A stretch of 60,243 nucleotides of DNA from Chloroflexota bacterium (GTDB lineage: Bacteria > Chloroflexota > Dehalococcoidia > Lucifugimonadales > UBA3495): assembly GCA_022568195.1 (NCBI GenBank), contig JADFFS010000003.1, positions 1 through 60,243 of the forward strand, given 5' to 3'. The notes below the pieces were generated by a model. It made no database searches. It saw nothing but the letters and a program-made list of their open reading frames with translations, and had not been told where the DNA came from. Position numbers and translations under genes: made by a program. Position 1 is the first letter of the stretch; each line of letters opens with the position of its first letter. Shown here in pieces: positions 5,837-12,220 of the stretch.

Positions 5837-7228
<1,392 letters not shown>

Positions 7229-7235
7229 CTCCTTT

Positions 7236-9038
7236 ATGGCAGCCCACAGGGCAGCTCCCTCGGAAAACGCTGGCCGTCCCGTGCCCACTGCCCAAGACTT
7301 AGCCCTAGCCTTGGGCCGCGATAGCCCCATCTACCAGCAAACCTTTACCCAGCTTCTCGAGCTATTCCGTCAAGCCCAAGGCACCCCAGGGGTGGACCTA
7401 CGCTATCGGGAATGGGCAGTTTACCTGTCGGCAGCGGTCCCGTCTGTTGAGTGCAGCGAAGAGTTATTCGTCAACCACACCTATTTAGCTTTGGTAGCCC
7501 GGCTTGTTGCCCGTTATTTCCTCAGCCCCGGTGCACCGGTCAGCGGCGCCGAAGAGTTGGCCCACATAATCGACGGAGACTACTTTCGAGAGCAGGGCAT
7601 CGACAACTACATAGAAGACGATTTTTTCACCTGGCTCCTGATTCCGGATATCGTCGCGTCGGGCGAGTCCGGATTGAAAACGATGGGCTGGTTGGCGAAC
7701 GCTCTGGCATCCTACGACTTCAGCCGAACTCCGCCGGGCCTGCTTACCGGGTTGTACCATCAGCTCACCGGTGGCCCTCCCAACGGTCCGAGCCCCGGGG
7801 ACATCCATACACCCTACTGGCTGGCTGAATACGTCCTGCAAGAGGAGCTGGGTCTGGGAACCGATGGGGAACAGAGCGTTTTGGACCCTTGCTGTGGGCC
7901 CGGGACCTTCCTGGCCGCTGCCGTGCGTTTGCACGCGGAGCGTCTGGCCGGCGAGGGCCAGGACGATTTCGATAGCCTGCTTCACATTCTTGACCGGGTA
8001 ATGGGGATGGACATACATCCCCTGGCGGTAACCGTGGCTCGAACCAACTACCTGCTGTCCCTTGGCAGTCTGGTGCAAGGGGTCCACGTGCCCGTGTTGC
8101 TCCCCGTGTACCTGTCAGGTCCCATCGCTACAGCCAGGAACCCCGGATCATCGGTGCTCTCCAACGGCGGGCCGGAACCGGTGTACACGTTTCACACGGA
8201 AACCCGGGAAGAGATGTTCCAGGTCCCCGATAGCGTCGCCTCCAACCTGGAGAGCCTGGACTGGTTGTTCGCCAGGTTGCCCAATTATCTCCGTGGAGCT
8301 GAAACGCGGGGCTCCAAGGGAGACGATGAGGCAGCCCAGGCAGTCCTCAACGCGTACTACAACTACCTGGTGGCGCCCAAGCTCAGGACGCCCATTCCGG
8401 AGCCTTTGAGCAGGTTTGCCGCCGATACGATGGTTGCCACGGCAGCCAAGTTGATCAACCGCTACCTGCAAGGCGCCGGTCTATTCTGGCCTTTTATCCT
8501 CAAGAATCTGCCGGCATCCGTGTACATGGCCCGGCGAAAGTTCGACTTGGTGGTGAGCAACCTGTGCCAACCGGTCACCGCAGAGGCTTCAGGTTCAGGA
8601 AAAGAAGACCGGCTGGGTCCAACCGCCGCCGCCAGCGGAGGCGAATCTGGCCGGGAAGCCGAGATATCCCCGGGTGATGACCCGGCGGGTGATCAATGGA
8701 GCGAGTACACCGCCCTCTACCTGAATGACGCCGGGCGCACGGCCTTGATAATGCCGTTTGACGCCCAAGCTTCTGGCGTGTCCGGCGCAGTCACGGGATA
8801 CAAGTCCCAGGCAACGCCGCTATATCAAAGGGCGGACAAGGTAGTAGACCTATCCGGCGTGGATGGGCTATCCAGCCCGCCCTACTGTGTGTTGATCGGT
8901 AATAAGAGCCTCGCCAGCCTCCAACCGGCTTCGACCACAACGTTAAAAGGCACGGCGCCATCCGACGACGCCCGGTGGGAACAGGCCAGGGAGCATGTAA
9001 CGATAGTGGATGAGGGGCCTCTGACTTTGCCCGACTAA
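7236..9038 (+). CDS. Degenerate N6-adenine DNA methyltransferase-like protein
   Basis: A 600-residue protein resembling Eco57I/type IIG-like N6-methyltransferases. After a helical N-terminal region it shows a motif X-like GDIHTPYWLAEYVL, the SAM-binding motif I VLDPCCGPGTFLAAA (about 214-228), and motif II GMDIHPLAVTVARTNYLL. The catalytic motif IV, normally NPPY/F, is replaced by SNLCQP at about 441-446. A later TALIMPFDAQASG resembles the usual IAFVMP segment. SAM binding is therefore plausible, but base methylation is doubtful. No restriction or specificity gene is adjacent. The ATG at 7236 is seven bases after the asnS stop and has no clear ribosome site; sequence upstream in this frame is only the shadow of asnS. 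Confidence 0.75.
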   Translation: MAAHRAAPSENAGRPVPTAQDLALALGRDSPIYQQTFTQLLELFRQAQGTPGVDLRYREWAVYLSAAVPSVECSEELFVNHTYLALVARLVARYFLSPGAPVSGAEELAHIIDGDYFREQGIDNYIEDDFFTWLLIPDIVASGESGLKTMGWLANALASYDFSRTPPGLLTGLYHQLTGGPPNGPSPGDIHTPYWLAEYVLQEELGLGTDGEQSVLDPCCGPGTFLAAAVRLHAERLAGEGQDDFDSLLHILDRVMGMDIHPLAVTVARTNYLLSLGSLVQGVHVPVLLPVYLSGPIATARNPGSSVLSNGGPEPVYTFHTETREEMFQVPDSVASNLESLDWLFARLPNYLRGAETRGSKGDDEAAQAVLNAYYNYLVAPKLRTPIPEPLSRFAADTMVATAAKLINRYLQGAGLFWPFILKNLPASVYMARRKFDLVVSNLCQPVTAEASGSGKEDRLGPTAAASGGESGREAEISPGDDPAGDQWSEYTALYLNDAGRTALIMPFDAQASGVSGAVTGYKSQATPLYQRADKVVDLSGVDGLSSPPYCVLIGNKSLASLQPASTTTLKGTAPSDDARWEQAREHVTIVDEGPLTLPD

Positions 9039-9160: not shown

Positions 9161-9667
9161 ATGACGACGCAAGAAGCTGTTTTGCACCCGCCCGCCATCA
9201 TCGCGGAACTGAAAAAGAACAATATCAGCCACGTGGTCTGGCTGCCGGACAGTGAGACCAACTTTATGTACCAGCTCCTGCAAAATGAGCCGTCCTTGGA
9301 CCTGGTGCCGGTGTGCCGCGAAGGCGAGACCATGGCCATCGCCGCCGGCTTGTGGGTCGGGGGCAAAAGGCCCGTGGTGCTGATTCAAAACACGGGAATA
9401 TTCGAGTCAGGAGACTCCATCCGTGGGTTGGGTCTGGACGTAAATCAGCCCTTGGTGATGCTGATCGGCTATCGGGGCTGGAGCCGCCACGGGATAACCA
9501 CCGACTCGGCCGCCCGGTTTATCGAGCACATTCTGCACGCTTGGGGCATCAACTACTACCTGATTGAGACCGACGAAGACGCCGTCCGCATCACCACCGC
9601 CATCGAGGAGGCCGAGCGCACCCGCAAACCTGTAGCGGTCCTGGTGGGCACCGAGTTCGGCGCCTAA
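9161..9667 (+). CDS. ThDP-dependent decarboxylase, PYR-domain subunit (sulfopyruvate decarboxylase alpha-like)
   Basis: The 168-residue protein is a stand-alone N-terminal (PYR) domain of thiamine-diphosphate enzymes, like ComD of sulfopyruvate/phosphonopyruvate decarboxylases. The conserved catalytic glutamate is in VCREGETMAIAAGLWVGGKRP (about residues 50-70), where it activates the cofactor. SHVVWLPDSETN and VLIQNTGIFESGDSIRGL are typical of this branch. AAGGAG lies five bases before the ATG. It forms an operon with the PP subunit 40 bases downstream. The real 2-oxoacid substrate cannot be read from sequence; sulfopyruvate is only the best-known family substrate. Confidence 0.82.
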   Translation: MTTQEAVLHPPAIIAELKKNNISHVVWLPDSETNFMYQLLQNEPSLDLVPVCREGETMAIAAGLWVGGKRPVVLIQNTGIFESGDSIRGLGLDVNQPLVMLIGYRGWSRHGITTDSAARFIEHILHAWGINYYLIETDEDAVRITTAIEEAERTRKPVAVLVGTEFGA

Positions 9668-9707
9668 TCAACCCGGCCTAAACAACCCGATAAGAGGAAT
9701 TCAATAA

Positions 9708-10298
9708 ATGATCAACAACACCGACGCCGTAAAGCTGCTGGATAGCAAGCGCGACGATTCGGTCTTCGTCGCCACCATGAACGCCAACAACGTGGGGTTC
9801 GGCTTGCCCAGCGTCACCACCAATGAACCGTTGGACTTCCCCATTTCCGGAGCCATGGGCAAGGCCTCTTCTGTGGGCCTGGGCTTGGCTCTGGCCCAAC
9901 CCGGCCGCAAGATCATGGTACTGGACGGGGACGGCAGCCTGCTGATGAACCTGGGTACCTTGGTCACCCTGTCCAACAAGGCCCCAAAAAACATGTACCA
10001 CTTCTTGTTCGACAATGGAGTCTATGCTGTAACCGGCGGCCAGCCGGTCCCAGGCGCTGACCGGGTCCAGTGGGAGGACATGGCCAAGTCGGCAGGCTAC
10101 GCGGCGACGTTTTCCTTCGACAACCTGGAGGACCTCACCACCGGCATCGACCAGGTTTTGGCCTCACAGGGCCCAGTGTTTATCCACCTGTCCATCACCC
10201 CGGAAATCGAGAACACTCCTGTAGCCGACAGGCCACGGGCCACTCGCAGCGTCCTGACCGCCTTCCGGGAGTTGCCCGCCGCACTGGGTAAAAAATAA
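9708..10298 (+). CDS. ThDP-dependent decarboxylase, PP-domain subunit (sulfopyruvate decarboxylase beta-like)
   Basis: The 196-residue protein is the ThDP-binding half matching the PYR subunit upstream. It contains the complete cofactor motif: GDGS at about residues 71-74 and the second Mg ligand in FLFDNGVYAVTGGQP. Both subunits together would form an active site at their interface and decarboxylate a 2-oxoacid. A ribosome site GAGGAAT precedes the start. A tandem relative of exactly the same length, with altered cofactor motifs, lies at 10664-11254. Confidence 0.85.
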   Translation: MINNTDAVKLLDSKRDDSVFVATMNANNVGFGLPSVTTNEPLDFPISGAMGKASSVGLGLALAQPGRKIMVLDGDGSLLMNLGTLVTLSNKAPKNMYHFLFDNGVYAVTGGQPVPGADRVQWEDMAKSAGYAATFSFDNLEDLTTGIDQVLASQGPVFIHLSITPEIENTPVADRPRATRSVLTAFRELPAALGKK

Positions 10299-10422
10299 TT
10301 ACAAGACCTAAACGGCGCGAACCCGCTGGCGGGTCGTACTTGGACCCTCCAGAAAGCCAAATGCGGAGCGATGGCTTGAACTTCGCCTCCGTCCCTCTTA
10401 TATTGAACATCGGACTTTGGTG

Positions 10423-10698
10423 ATGCCACCCCATGCCATACTGGTCACTTTGGTTCGGGGTCTGCTCGGTAGGTTACTGACCTACGGCGCCTTGGCCCTG
10501 GGGTTCTGGCTGCTCTTCCAAGGGTTTTCCAAGCCCAGTGTCCCGGCGGGGCTTTTGGGAGGAGCAGCGATTCTGGGCGGCATGTATTTTATGGTCGTGG
10601 TGCGTCGTTCCACCGGATCAGGCCCCGCGACAGATAAACCCGGCGACAAGGAGGACAACCCCAGTGATTCCTTCGATGGAAGCGACCAAGGCGATTAA
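10423..10698 (+). CDS. Small two-helix membrane protein of unknown function
   Basis: This 91-residue protein has two hydrophobic segments, ILVTLVRGLLGRLLTYGALA... and VPAGLLGGAAILGGMYFMVVV, followed by a polar acidic tail (PGDKEDNPSDSFDGSDQGD). I do not recognise a family. Possible starts are TTG 10417, GTG 10420 and ATG 10423; I chose the ATG, and none has a strong ribosome site. Its last 35 bases overlap the start of the next gene, whose ribosome site AAGGAGG is inside this gene, suggesting translational coupling. It sits between two paralogous ThDP PP-domain genes, so a linked role is possible but unproven. Confidence 0.6.
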   Translation: MPPHAILVTLVRGLLGRLLTYGALALGFWLLFQGFSKPSVPAGLLGGAAILGGMYFMVVVRRSTGSGPATDKPGDKEDNPSDSFDGSDQGD

Positions 10699-11254
10699 CT
10701 ACCACCGCAAAGATGCGTTGGTGGTGGCAACTTCGGCGGCGTTGCGGGAGTGGAACGTGGTGTCCGAACAGCGCAATTTGGACATCGATTTGAGCGATTG
10801 CATGGACCGCGCGCCTGCCGTGGGACTGGGTTTGGCTTTGGCCCAGCCCGATAGCAAGGTCCTGGTGCTGGACTGCGACGCCACCCTGCGCACCGACCTG
10901 GGGGGCTTGGCCACGATTGGGGAGTCCAAGCCGGAAAACCTGGTGCACTTTCTGTTCGACGACGCCACCCACATTTCCACCGATGGAATACCGATCAGAG
11001 GACTGGACAACATAAACTGGCTGTCCATGGCCGAGGGCGCTGGCTACGTCAAGCTATACCAGTTTGACGCTCTTGAGGAGTTTCTAATTGGCCTCGAAGA
11101 GGTCATGGTTCAGGAGGGGCCGGTGTTTGTGCTGGTGAAGGTGTATAGGGAACCCGAGCTGCTTCCTTTCCCTGAACGAACCATGGCCGAGAGTTGGAGC
11201 TCCGTGAGGGAAGCCCTGCTGGCCCGCTCGCAAAGCGAACCCGCCCCCGAGTAG
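10664..11254 (+). CDS. Degenerate paralogue of the ThDP PP-domain subunit
   Basis: Read from the GTG at 10664, nine bases after AAGGAGG (10648-10654), the protein is 196 residues, identical in length to the PP subunit at 9708. The two share AVGLGLALAQP, the VLVLD strand, HFLFD and the C-terminal QEGPVF(V/I). The cofactor motif is altered, however: GDGS became CDAT, and the DNGVY that carries the second Mg ligand became DDATH. The motif aspartate is retained but its flanking glycines are lost, so ThDP binding is doubtful. It may be a regulatory or structural pseudo-subunit. The frame is open and well conserved in layout, so it does not look like a decaying pseudogene. Confidence 0.75.
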   Translation: MIPSMEATKAINYHRKDALVVATSAALREWNVVSEQRNLDIDLSDCMDRAPAVGLGLALAQPDSKVLVLDCDATLRTDLGGLATIGESKPENLVHFLFDDATHISTDGIPIRGLDNINWLSMAEGAGYVKLYQFDALEEFLIGLEEVMVQEGPVFVLVKVYREPELLPFPERTMAESWSSVREALLARSQSEPAPE

Positions 11255-11452: not shown

Positions 11453-12220
11453 TCAGGCCGATGAGGCCCGGTCTCCCTCGCAGGGACGCACTAGAATCTG
11501 GCGGGCCACGTTATAACCGATAGAAACTCGGTTGTCCGCCGCCGCCACCATCATTACTCCCAAGTAGGGCGTCGCCTCGACCACATTGATGTCGTTTTCC
11601 GGGATAATCCGCGAGACCGTCAGGAACTTTAGTAGTTGCTCATCCTCTTCGGGCACCCGGTCTATGATGTAGGTCACGCCGGTCGACGCCTGGTCCAGGG
11701 TCAGTGCGTCGAAAGGCACCCGTGGCGTGCCGGTGCCAGGGATGGGACGGCCGAAGGGAGACTTGGTCGGGTGGCCCAAACGCTCCATTAGCTTTTCTTG
11801 AAACTCTTGGGACATACCATGTTCCAGCCGGTGGGCCTCTATGTGGGCTTTGTGCAGGTCCATGCCCAGCAGACGCACCACCAGCCACTCTGCCAGCCGA
11901 TGCCTTCGGGCAATGTCCTCACCACCCTCCGTGCCCTTCTTGGTCAGCCGTATTCGCTTGTCCTGGCCGATCTCCACCAGCCCCTGCCGCTGCATGCGCC
12001 TGACCATTCCCGCGACGGAAGGTACCGAGGTGCCCAGTCCTTCGGCTACCGGCAACTGGCGCAGAGAATCGGTGAGCTGAGTGGTGGTGGGAATCTCCGA
12101 GTCTTCCCACAGCTTGTATAGACAGAGCAGGTAGTTCTCGGTTCCCGGAGAAAGTCGTTCGGGGGACGAATCCTGGCCGGTTGAGTCCGAAGATTGGCTG
12201 GTTTTGCGTGTTCGAGGCAT
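11453..12220 (-). CDS. DtxR/MntR-family metal-dependent transcriptional repressor
   Basis: The 255-residue protein has an N-terminal winged helix (SPGTENYLLCLYKLWED..., SVPSVAGMVRRMQRQGLVEIGQDKRIRLTKKGTE). A dimerisation/metal domain follows, with RRHRLAEWLVVRLLGMDLHKAHIEAHRLEHGMS, carrying the His and Glu ligands typical of DtxR. The C-terminal part resembles a FeoA/SH3-like domain. With Fe2+ or Mn2+ bound it should repress uptake genes. It lies 58 bases downstream of fbpC on the same strand, so it is probably made from the fbpC transcript and feeds back on the iron transporter promoters between fbpC and fbpA. Confidence 0.88.
   Translation of the reverse strand: MPRTRKTSQSSDSTGQDSSPERLSPGTENYLLCLYKLWEDSEIPTTTQLTDSLRQLPVAEGLGTSVPSVAGMVRRMQRQGLVEIGQDKRIRLTKKGTEGGEDIARRHRLAEWLVVRLLGMDLHKAHIEAHRLEHGMSQEFQEKLMERLGHPTKSPFGRPIPGTGTPRVPFDALTLDQASTGVTYIIDRVPEEDEQLLKFLTVSRIIPENDINVVEATPYLGVMMVAAADNRVSIGYNVARQILVRPCEGDRASSA

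Follow-up and report, generated by a model that had tools for sequence, protein, structure and literature searches.

A gene in the window (the whole 60,243-nucleotide stretch analyzed here, part of a 3.7-Mb metagenome-assembled genome, G000:C112) encodes a protein with the PP fold that probably no longer holds ThDP in the normal way, its cofactor pocket having apparently been remade into a different, strictly conserved site. We refer to this altered PP protein as beta', to the intact PP subunit encoded near it as beta, and to an older PP lineage as beta2. Comparison with the relatives in a named collection (Dehalococcoidia and other Chloroflexota records, many of them labelled SAR202 cluster bacteria) showed that beta' is a conserved orthologous group under selection, that its altered pocket is hyper-conserved, that it belongs to a lineage distinct from that of beta, and that it persists without the adjacent PYR and beta genes. 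We favor, with about as much doubt as confidence, the explanation that the small membrane protein and beta' form a module in which a ThDP-incompetent beta' with a repurposed pocket serves, most likely, as a ligand-responsive regulator or anchor.

The four open reading frames from which the sequence-only reading started, i.e., PYR, PP, membrane protein and second PP, were all present (Table 1). PYR and beta (9161-10298) have the properties of a two-subunit ThDP decarboxylase, namely adjacent genes, a catalytic Glu and a full PP motif; the catalytic-Glu context CREGETMA is retained in PYR, and its REGE aligned to RhiE. The nearest solved structures are RhiE for PYR (9iz3_A, E 1e-12) and RhiF for beta (9iz3_B, E 5e-20). 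The best NCBIfam models for the pair were those of the sulfopyruvate decarboxylase ComD/ComE, against which PYR scored 93.2 bits (TIGR03845, equivalog cut-off 147.95) and beta 123.6 bits (TIGR03846, cut-off 221.5), while beta scored 122.1 against the phosphonopyruvate decarboxylase model TIGR03297, which describes the fused single-chain form (cut-off 312.5); beta' reached 61 bits in the ComD/ComE comparison. Because PYR and beta fall far under every equivalog cut-off, a sulfopyruvate or phosphonopyruvate substrate is not assignable, and substrate prediction from these models was rejected. We also drew no functional conclusion from the neighboring genes (GatA, AsnRS, methylase-like, DtxR and iron ABC), which are of housekeeping or iron-related type and only partly conserved. 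Of 51 loci, 35 have the DtxR-type repressor, which is fused to a FeoA domain, in the vicinity of beta', and an iron ABC transporter frequently accompanies it. The open reading frame between AsnRS and PYR showed weak similarity to N6-methylases (E 0.01) and evolves fast (35-49% identity), yet its synteny is kept in 14 loci. The 3.7-Mb genome as a whole has a rich set of ThDP enzymes, with 41 TPP_enzyme_C matches.

Table 1. Features of the PYR-beta-membrane protein-beta' locus (positions in the window) and of other PP loci mentioned in the text (positions in the named locus).
Feature	Position	Strand	Remarks
ORF between AsnRS and PYR	7014..9038		
PYR-type (alpha) subunit, two-subunit ThDP decarboxylase	9161..9667	+	168 aa; TPP_enzyme_N 31.1 bits
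PP-type (beta) subunit	9708..10298	+	196 aa; TPP_enzyme_C 63.8 bits; complete motif GAMG / GDGSLLMN / DNGVYAVTGGQP
Small membrane protein	10423..10698	+	91 aa counted from the second possible start; stop inside the beta' gene
Shine-Dalgarno-like AAGGAGG	10648..10654	+	9 nt before the GTG of beta'; read from sequence
Altered PP-type protein (beta')	10664..11254	+	196 aa from GTG; TPP_enzyme_C 27.7 bits
D45-C46-M47-D48 of beta'	10796..10807	+	in place of GAMG of the aminopyrimidine-side loop; D45, C46 and D48 in 52/52 orthologues
D70-C71-D72-A73-T74-L75-R76-T77-D78 of beta'	10871..10897	+	in place of DGDGSLLMN of the diphosphate/Mg loop; D70, D72 and R76 in 52/52
D100 of beta'	10961..10963	+	in place of the Mg-ligand Asn (N103 of the PP subunit); Asp in 52/52
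DtxR-type repressor fused to FeoA domain	11453..12220	-	
DSEG subfamily	L044:4499-5086(-), L054:1948-2541, L057:4061-4651, L058:4064-4651(-), L127 from 2648(+), L129 (minus strand), L173		
PYR followed by three PP genes, family f30	L167 from 2233, L168 from 2698, L169 from 2117		
PP-only beta2 cluster, example	L118:2959-7227		
PYR followed by three tandem PP genes	L046:4521-6837		
Divergent PP-like protein	L048:5573-6139		

Beta and beta' share 39% identity over 181 positions, and beta' lies narrowly above the Pfam cut-off for TPP_enzyme_C (PF02775, 21.9 bits). In their alignment GAMGKAS of beta is replaced by DCMDRAP, DGDGSLLMN by DCDATLRTD and DNGVYAVTGGQP by DDATHISTDGIP, and the TGGQP loop of beta is lost. 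The changes of GDGS to CDAT and of DNGVY to DDATH that had been read from the sequence are therefore correct, but that list was incomplete, as it lacked GAMG to DCMD, LLMN to LRTD and the TGGQP loop. D45, C46, D48, D70, D72, R76, D100, T106 and G108 are invariant in the alignment of 52 beta' orthologues; C71 and T74 are each present in 48 of the 52 and are replaced in early branches, and the divergent relative L156 has ESDAT and DCPERV. The differing residues that are fixed (beta'/beta) are D45/G, C46/A, C71/G, T74/S, T77/M and D100/N, plus D48/G and R76/L, and these fixed differences cluster at the cofactor site. Thus, where a functional ThDP-binding PP motif has GDG...N and a Gly after the V-conformation Met, the orthologues of beta' have CDA...D and DCMD.

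Among 21 further proteins with a ThDP domain in this genome, Gly follows the Met/Leu in 19 of 19, and GDG is kept at its first Gly in 19 of 21 and at its third position in 20 of 21. Because GDA- and GDC-type motifs, with Ala or Cys at the third position, occur in some other ThDP-domain proteins of this genome, A73 alone does not disqualify beta' from binding ThDP; the probable loss of ThDP binding is argued instead from C71, D45/D48, R76 and the lost TGGQP loop. D100 also has a precedent, Asp being already at this position in beta2 relatives that retain GDGS. Since Asp72 and a carboxylate at position 100 remain in beta', Mg binding is possible. We considered LDCDATL as a HAD-like DxDxT phosphatase motif and rejected it, as active beta has the first Asp too (LDGDGS), and L156 has Glu in its place.

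Beta' was present in 46 of 50 genomes of its family, and three other families of this order of SAR202-type Dehalococcoidia have it as well; a scan of species genomes gave 51 named loci with the altered motif, far beyond chance; all beta' loci come from MAGs. The search of related genomes for the four-gene arrangement, which the sequence-only reading had proposed, showed the order PYR-PP-membrane protein-altered PP at nearly all loci, and this order is kept even where the flanking genes differ. Absence or frameshifting of the altered gene in close relatives, and an intact motif in relatives that would betray a sequencing error, were the two objections that this reading had foreseen, and both came back negative: frames were intact, with no frameshift in the conserved part of beta' across 52 assemblies, and no intact ThDP motif was found in any beta' orthologue across the loci examined. 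Its suggestion that the clean frame reflects selection was borne out as well, since close-pair dN/dS values of beta' were 0.02-0.15, similar to those of beta and indicative of purifying selection. The identical lengths that it had emphasized are real (both proteins have 196 residues) but coincidental, as they depend on the choice of the GTG start and conceal 9 gap positions, and the orthologues of beta' range from about 179 to 213 aa. Our results further showed that constraint on beta' is strongest at the pocket positions, with a pN/pS of 0.071 versus 0.364 elsewhere, and that the same positions in active beta have a pN/pS of 0.128. Such constraint on the pocket would not be expected of a relic in decay or of a protein that only fills a place, and this pattern points to a functional site.

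The hydropathy of the small membrane protein shows two hydrophobic segments, its C-terminal tail is charged, and no Pfam family matched it above cut-off. It was found by tblastn at 49 of 52 beta' loci; its gene overlaps beta' in 33 of these 49, by 35 nt of coding sequence in the window (an overlap that the sequence-only reading did not list), and GGAGG-type sites are present in many beta' orthologues too. The distance from beta to the membrane gene varies from 6 to 1374 nt. A profile of the membrane protein (A2) detected it in 16 of 118 genomes of the order, 14 of which have beta', and its matches were limited to families f1, f4, f10 and f15; in G149 and G155 a similar membrane gene lies beside gltX, with no beta'. 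Because the membrane gene commonly overlaps beta', the gap between beta and the membrane gene is variable and the profile tracks beta', the locus suggests two modules, PYR-beta and membrane protein-beta'. A membrane link of beta', raised earlier as a possibility, is therefore plausible, and beta' and the overlapping two-helix membrane protein would act as one module.

In the census of the 50 family genomes, beta' was found in 46, PYR in 43, beta in 43 and all three in 43, and no genome had PYR/beta without beta'; the four genomes with none of the three are 67-85% complete. Three of the 46 genomes with beta' lack PYR/beta (G004, locus L080; G018, locus L078; G029, locus L103), and beta' thus does not occur only with its enzyme. 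In each of these exceptions a single contig carries the methylase-like gene that lies upstream, followed by the membrane gene and beta' without the intervening PYR and beta; a 111-aa remnant of beta is still present in L080. L078 and L080 are sisters in the tree, and L103 is the sister of L071, in which PYR and beta are present; because these exceptions fall in separate places, PYR and beta must have been deleted twice independently. All 53 of 53 invariant positions of beta' are unchanged in the three genomes, and dN/dS is not raised. Since beta' was kept unchanged after two deletions, its function seems to be independent of the adjacent PYR/beta, and beta' very probably performs a task of its own, with the qualification that the exception genomes are MAGs and that G004 and G018 contain PYR paralogues at 57-63%; in G029 there is no PYR closer than 26%. 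The earlier suggestion of a pseudo-subunit is not supported as it stood, as beta' is not strictly an accessory of the adjacent enzyme: it persists where PYR and PP have been deleted, and one or more of its functions would have to be possible in the absence of the PYR-beta decarboxylase.

A tree with outgroups placed all beta' sequences in one clade (100/98), nested within a 40-sequence beta2 group (98/94) and separate from the adjacent beta and its clade (99/95). A grouping of beta' with the "Asp-type" beta2 relatives was not rejected (p-AU 0.44). Most other beta2 members retain GDGS. The rooted tree rules out a recent duplication of the adjacent PP as the origin of beta', contrary to the derivation assumed in the sequence-only reading; instead, its position in the tree makes beta' a degenerate offshoot of a second, old PP lineage. 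The beta2 genes of L044, L045 and L046 are 3' of an intact beta, and those of L047 and L050 are the sole PP beside a PYR. The SAR202 beta2-type proteins (L045, L046, L047 and L110-L124) share the clade of beta' (98/94) and mostly have Asp at the Asn position, but retain GDGS, some beside a PYR and others alone, with no PYR, in a cluster with UbiD, UbiA and UbiX-like genes. The PP-only proteins of L110-L124 have GDGS or GDGG, and their conserved cluster, which contains UbiD, UbiA, a UbiX-like flavoprotein and a PHP-domain gene, possibly functions in quinone biosynthesis. L046 has three PP genes in tandem behind a single PYR, and the GDG motif is intact in each.

The AlphaFold2 model of beta' has a PP fold (pLDDT 89.8), and its best fold match was RhiF (Z 24.6, 173 residues, 1.8 A), followed by AzcBC and single-chain ThDP enzymes; the PP domains of AHAS and POX gave Z values of 19-20. 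Sequence score and fold therefore both place beta' among PP domains. The model of beta alone was less confident (80.3), mainly around the cofactor loops, which is in line with, but does not prove, beta' being more self-contained than beta. In RhiE/RhiF, a phosphonopyruvate decarboxylase (PDB 9iz3 and 9iz4), PYR and PP are encoded by separate genes, as here, and ThDP is bound at an interface of the heterotetrameric enzyme (PMC12141560). However, RhiF, which is 22-24% identical to beta', retains GSMG, DGDGS and DNG, and that review, which regards two-subunit ThDP decarboxylases as an ancestral form of the superfamily, mentions neither a membrane protein nor a second PP subunit for RhiE/RhiF (PMC12141560). 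The alpha-imino acid decarboxylase AzcB/AzcC (PDB 9u8q) also has a small separate PP subunit, matched by beta' with a Z of 20.6 over 175 residues and 18% identity, but is ThDP-dependent according to its entry title. Yeast Thi3, a relative of pyruvate decarboxylase, serves as a regulator and is reported to bind TPP in a pseudo active site (PMC10246790). Its likeness to beta' is limited to the way in which it works, i.e., as a ThDP-enzyme relative kept for regulation and not for catalysis; Thi3 is a eukaryotic decarboxylase relative, whereas beta' consists of a PP domain alone, its pocket rebuilt. The part of the literature that was covered contained no report of PP subunits without cofactor in two-subunit decarboxylases, or of ThDP pseudo-subunits in SAR202.

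From these comparisons we infer that beta' does not bind ThDP, and that it most likely binds another ligand in the old pocket and acts at the membrane as a regulatory or anchoring partner, of PYR-beta where that enzyme is present. Where it is encoded beside PYR-beta, it would probably either replace one beta chain, giving a mixed alpha/beta/beta' assembly, or dock the enzyme to the membrane. Against this explanation stand the possible Mg binding by Asp72 and the carboxylate at 100, the GDA/GDC motifs elsewhere in the genome and the derivation of every locus from MAGs. Moreover, every genome with PYR/beta has beta', which fits a strict subunit whose partners were swapped for paralogues in the three exceptions. 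Beta' might accordingly be a dedicated regulatory pseudo-subunit that works only inside a mixed heterotetramer with PYR and beta, in which half of the sites are active, and that sets the activity, substrate choice or location of the enzyme, with a PYR paralogue as its partner in the three exceptions. The absence of PYR/beta without beta' (0 of 43), the gene order kept despite differing flanks and the heterotetrameric state of RhiEF, the nearest solved enzyme, with its interface ThDP (PMC12141560), all favor such a subunit. However, we consider it unlikely, if far from negligible, as PYR and beta were deleted twice while beta' stayed unchanged, G029 is without a close PYR, and the tightest constraint of beta' falls on its pocket.

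The same constraint, which exceeds that of the active beta pocket, would suit a neofunctionalized enzyme in which D45, C46, D48, D70, D72, T74, R76 and D100 form a new ThDP-free catalytic center, possibly Mg-dependent, as would the clustered acidic residues, Cys and Arg that are identical in 52 of 52 orthologues and the independence of beta' from the adjacent PYR. This is decidedly unlikely in our judgment, since C71 and T74 are replaced in early branches, the divergent L156 has ESDAT and DCPERV, no known catalytic motif could be assigned, and the protein is small and has no extra domain. It is highly improbable that beta' is still a ThDP subunit with an unusual motif and with Mg held by D72 and D100: Asp72 is retained, Asp replaces Asn in beta2 relatives with GDGS, and Ala or Cys occupies the third motif position in other ThDP proteins of the genome, but beta' has other residues than Gly both at the start of GDG and after Met, its invariant Asp48 and Arg76 are new, it lacks the TGGQP loop, and in one genome no close PYR is present. 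A decaying pseudogene or sequencing error would account for the loss of the motif and for nothing further; the census refutes it, with the same substitutions in 52 assemblies under low dN/dS and without frameshifts in the conserved part, and we regard its probability as practically nil. Returning to the membrane protein-beta' module, we propose tentatively, with doubt prevailing over belief, the broader statement that a PP domain has become a membrane-coupled protein standing on its own, in whose old cofactor pocket a new site for ligand binding or catalysis (D45, C46, D48, D72, R76 and D100) has arisen, and which is kept in four SAR202 families and operates independently of the adjacent decarboxylase.

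Beta' is without the cofactor motif, yet it is under tighter constraint there and has outlived its enzyme, and it offers a clear example, open to testing, of how a pseudo-subunit can gain a new role. Deep-sea SAR202 bacteria commonly have it; SAR202 are abundant in the ocean, and a paralogue expansion of catabolic enzymes has been proposed for them (PMC10444878).

Other PP proteins of the order are altered as well. In a DSEG subfamily encoded beside PYR, which the genome of the window also carries (L127 and L129), GDGS is changed to DSEG, the Mg-ligand Asp being replaced by Glu, and the Asn is kept. In family f30, where PYR is followed by three PP genes, the middle PP has VDTDG[GA] for DGDGS and PD[VA][VL]GKG for GAMGKAS, and forms a third, separate altered branch within the beta2 clade. 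That the order has two or more altered PP families besides beta' suggests that alteration of PP is a recurrent route. Finally, L048 contains a very divergent PP-like protein (~25% identity) after an intact PYR-PP pair, in which the motif is replaced by LQSNESMKAS and the Asn region has a deletion.
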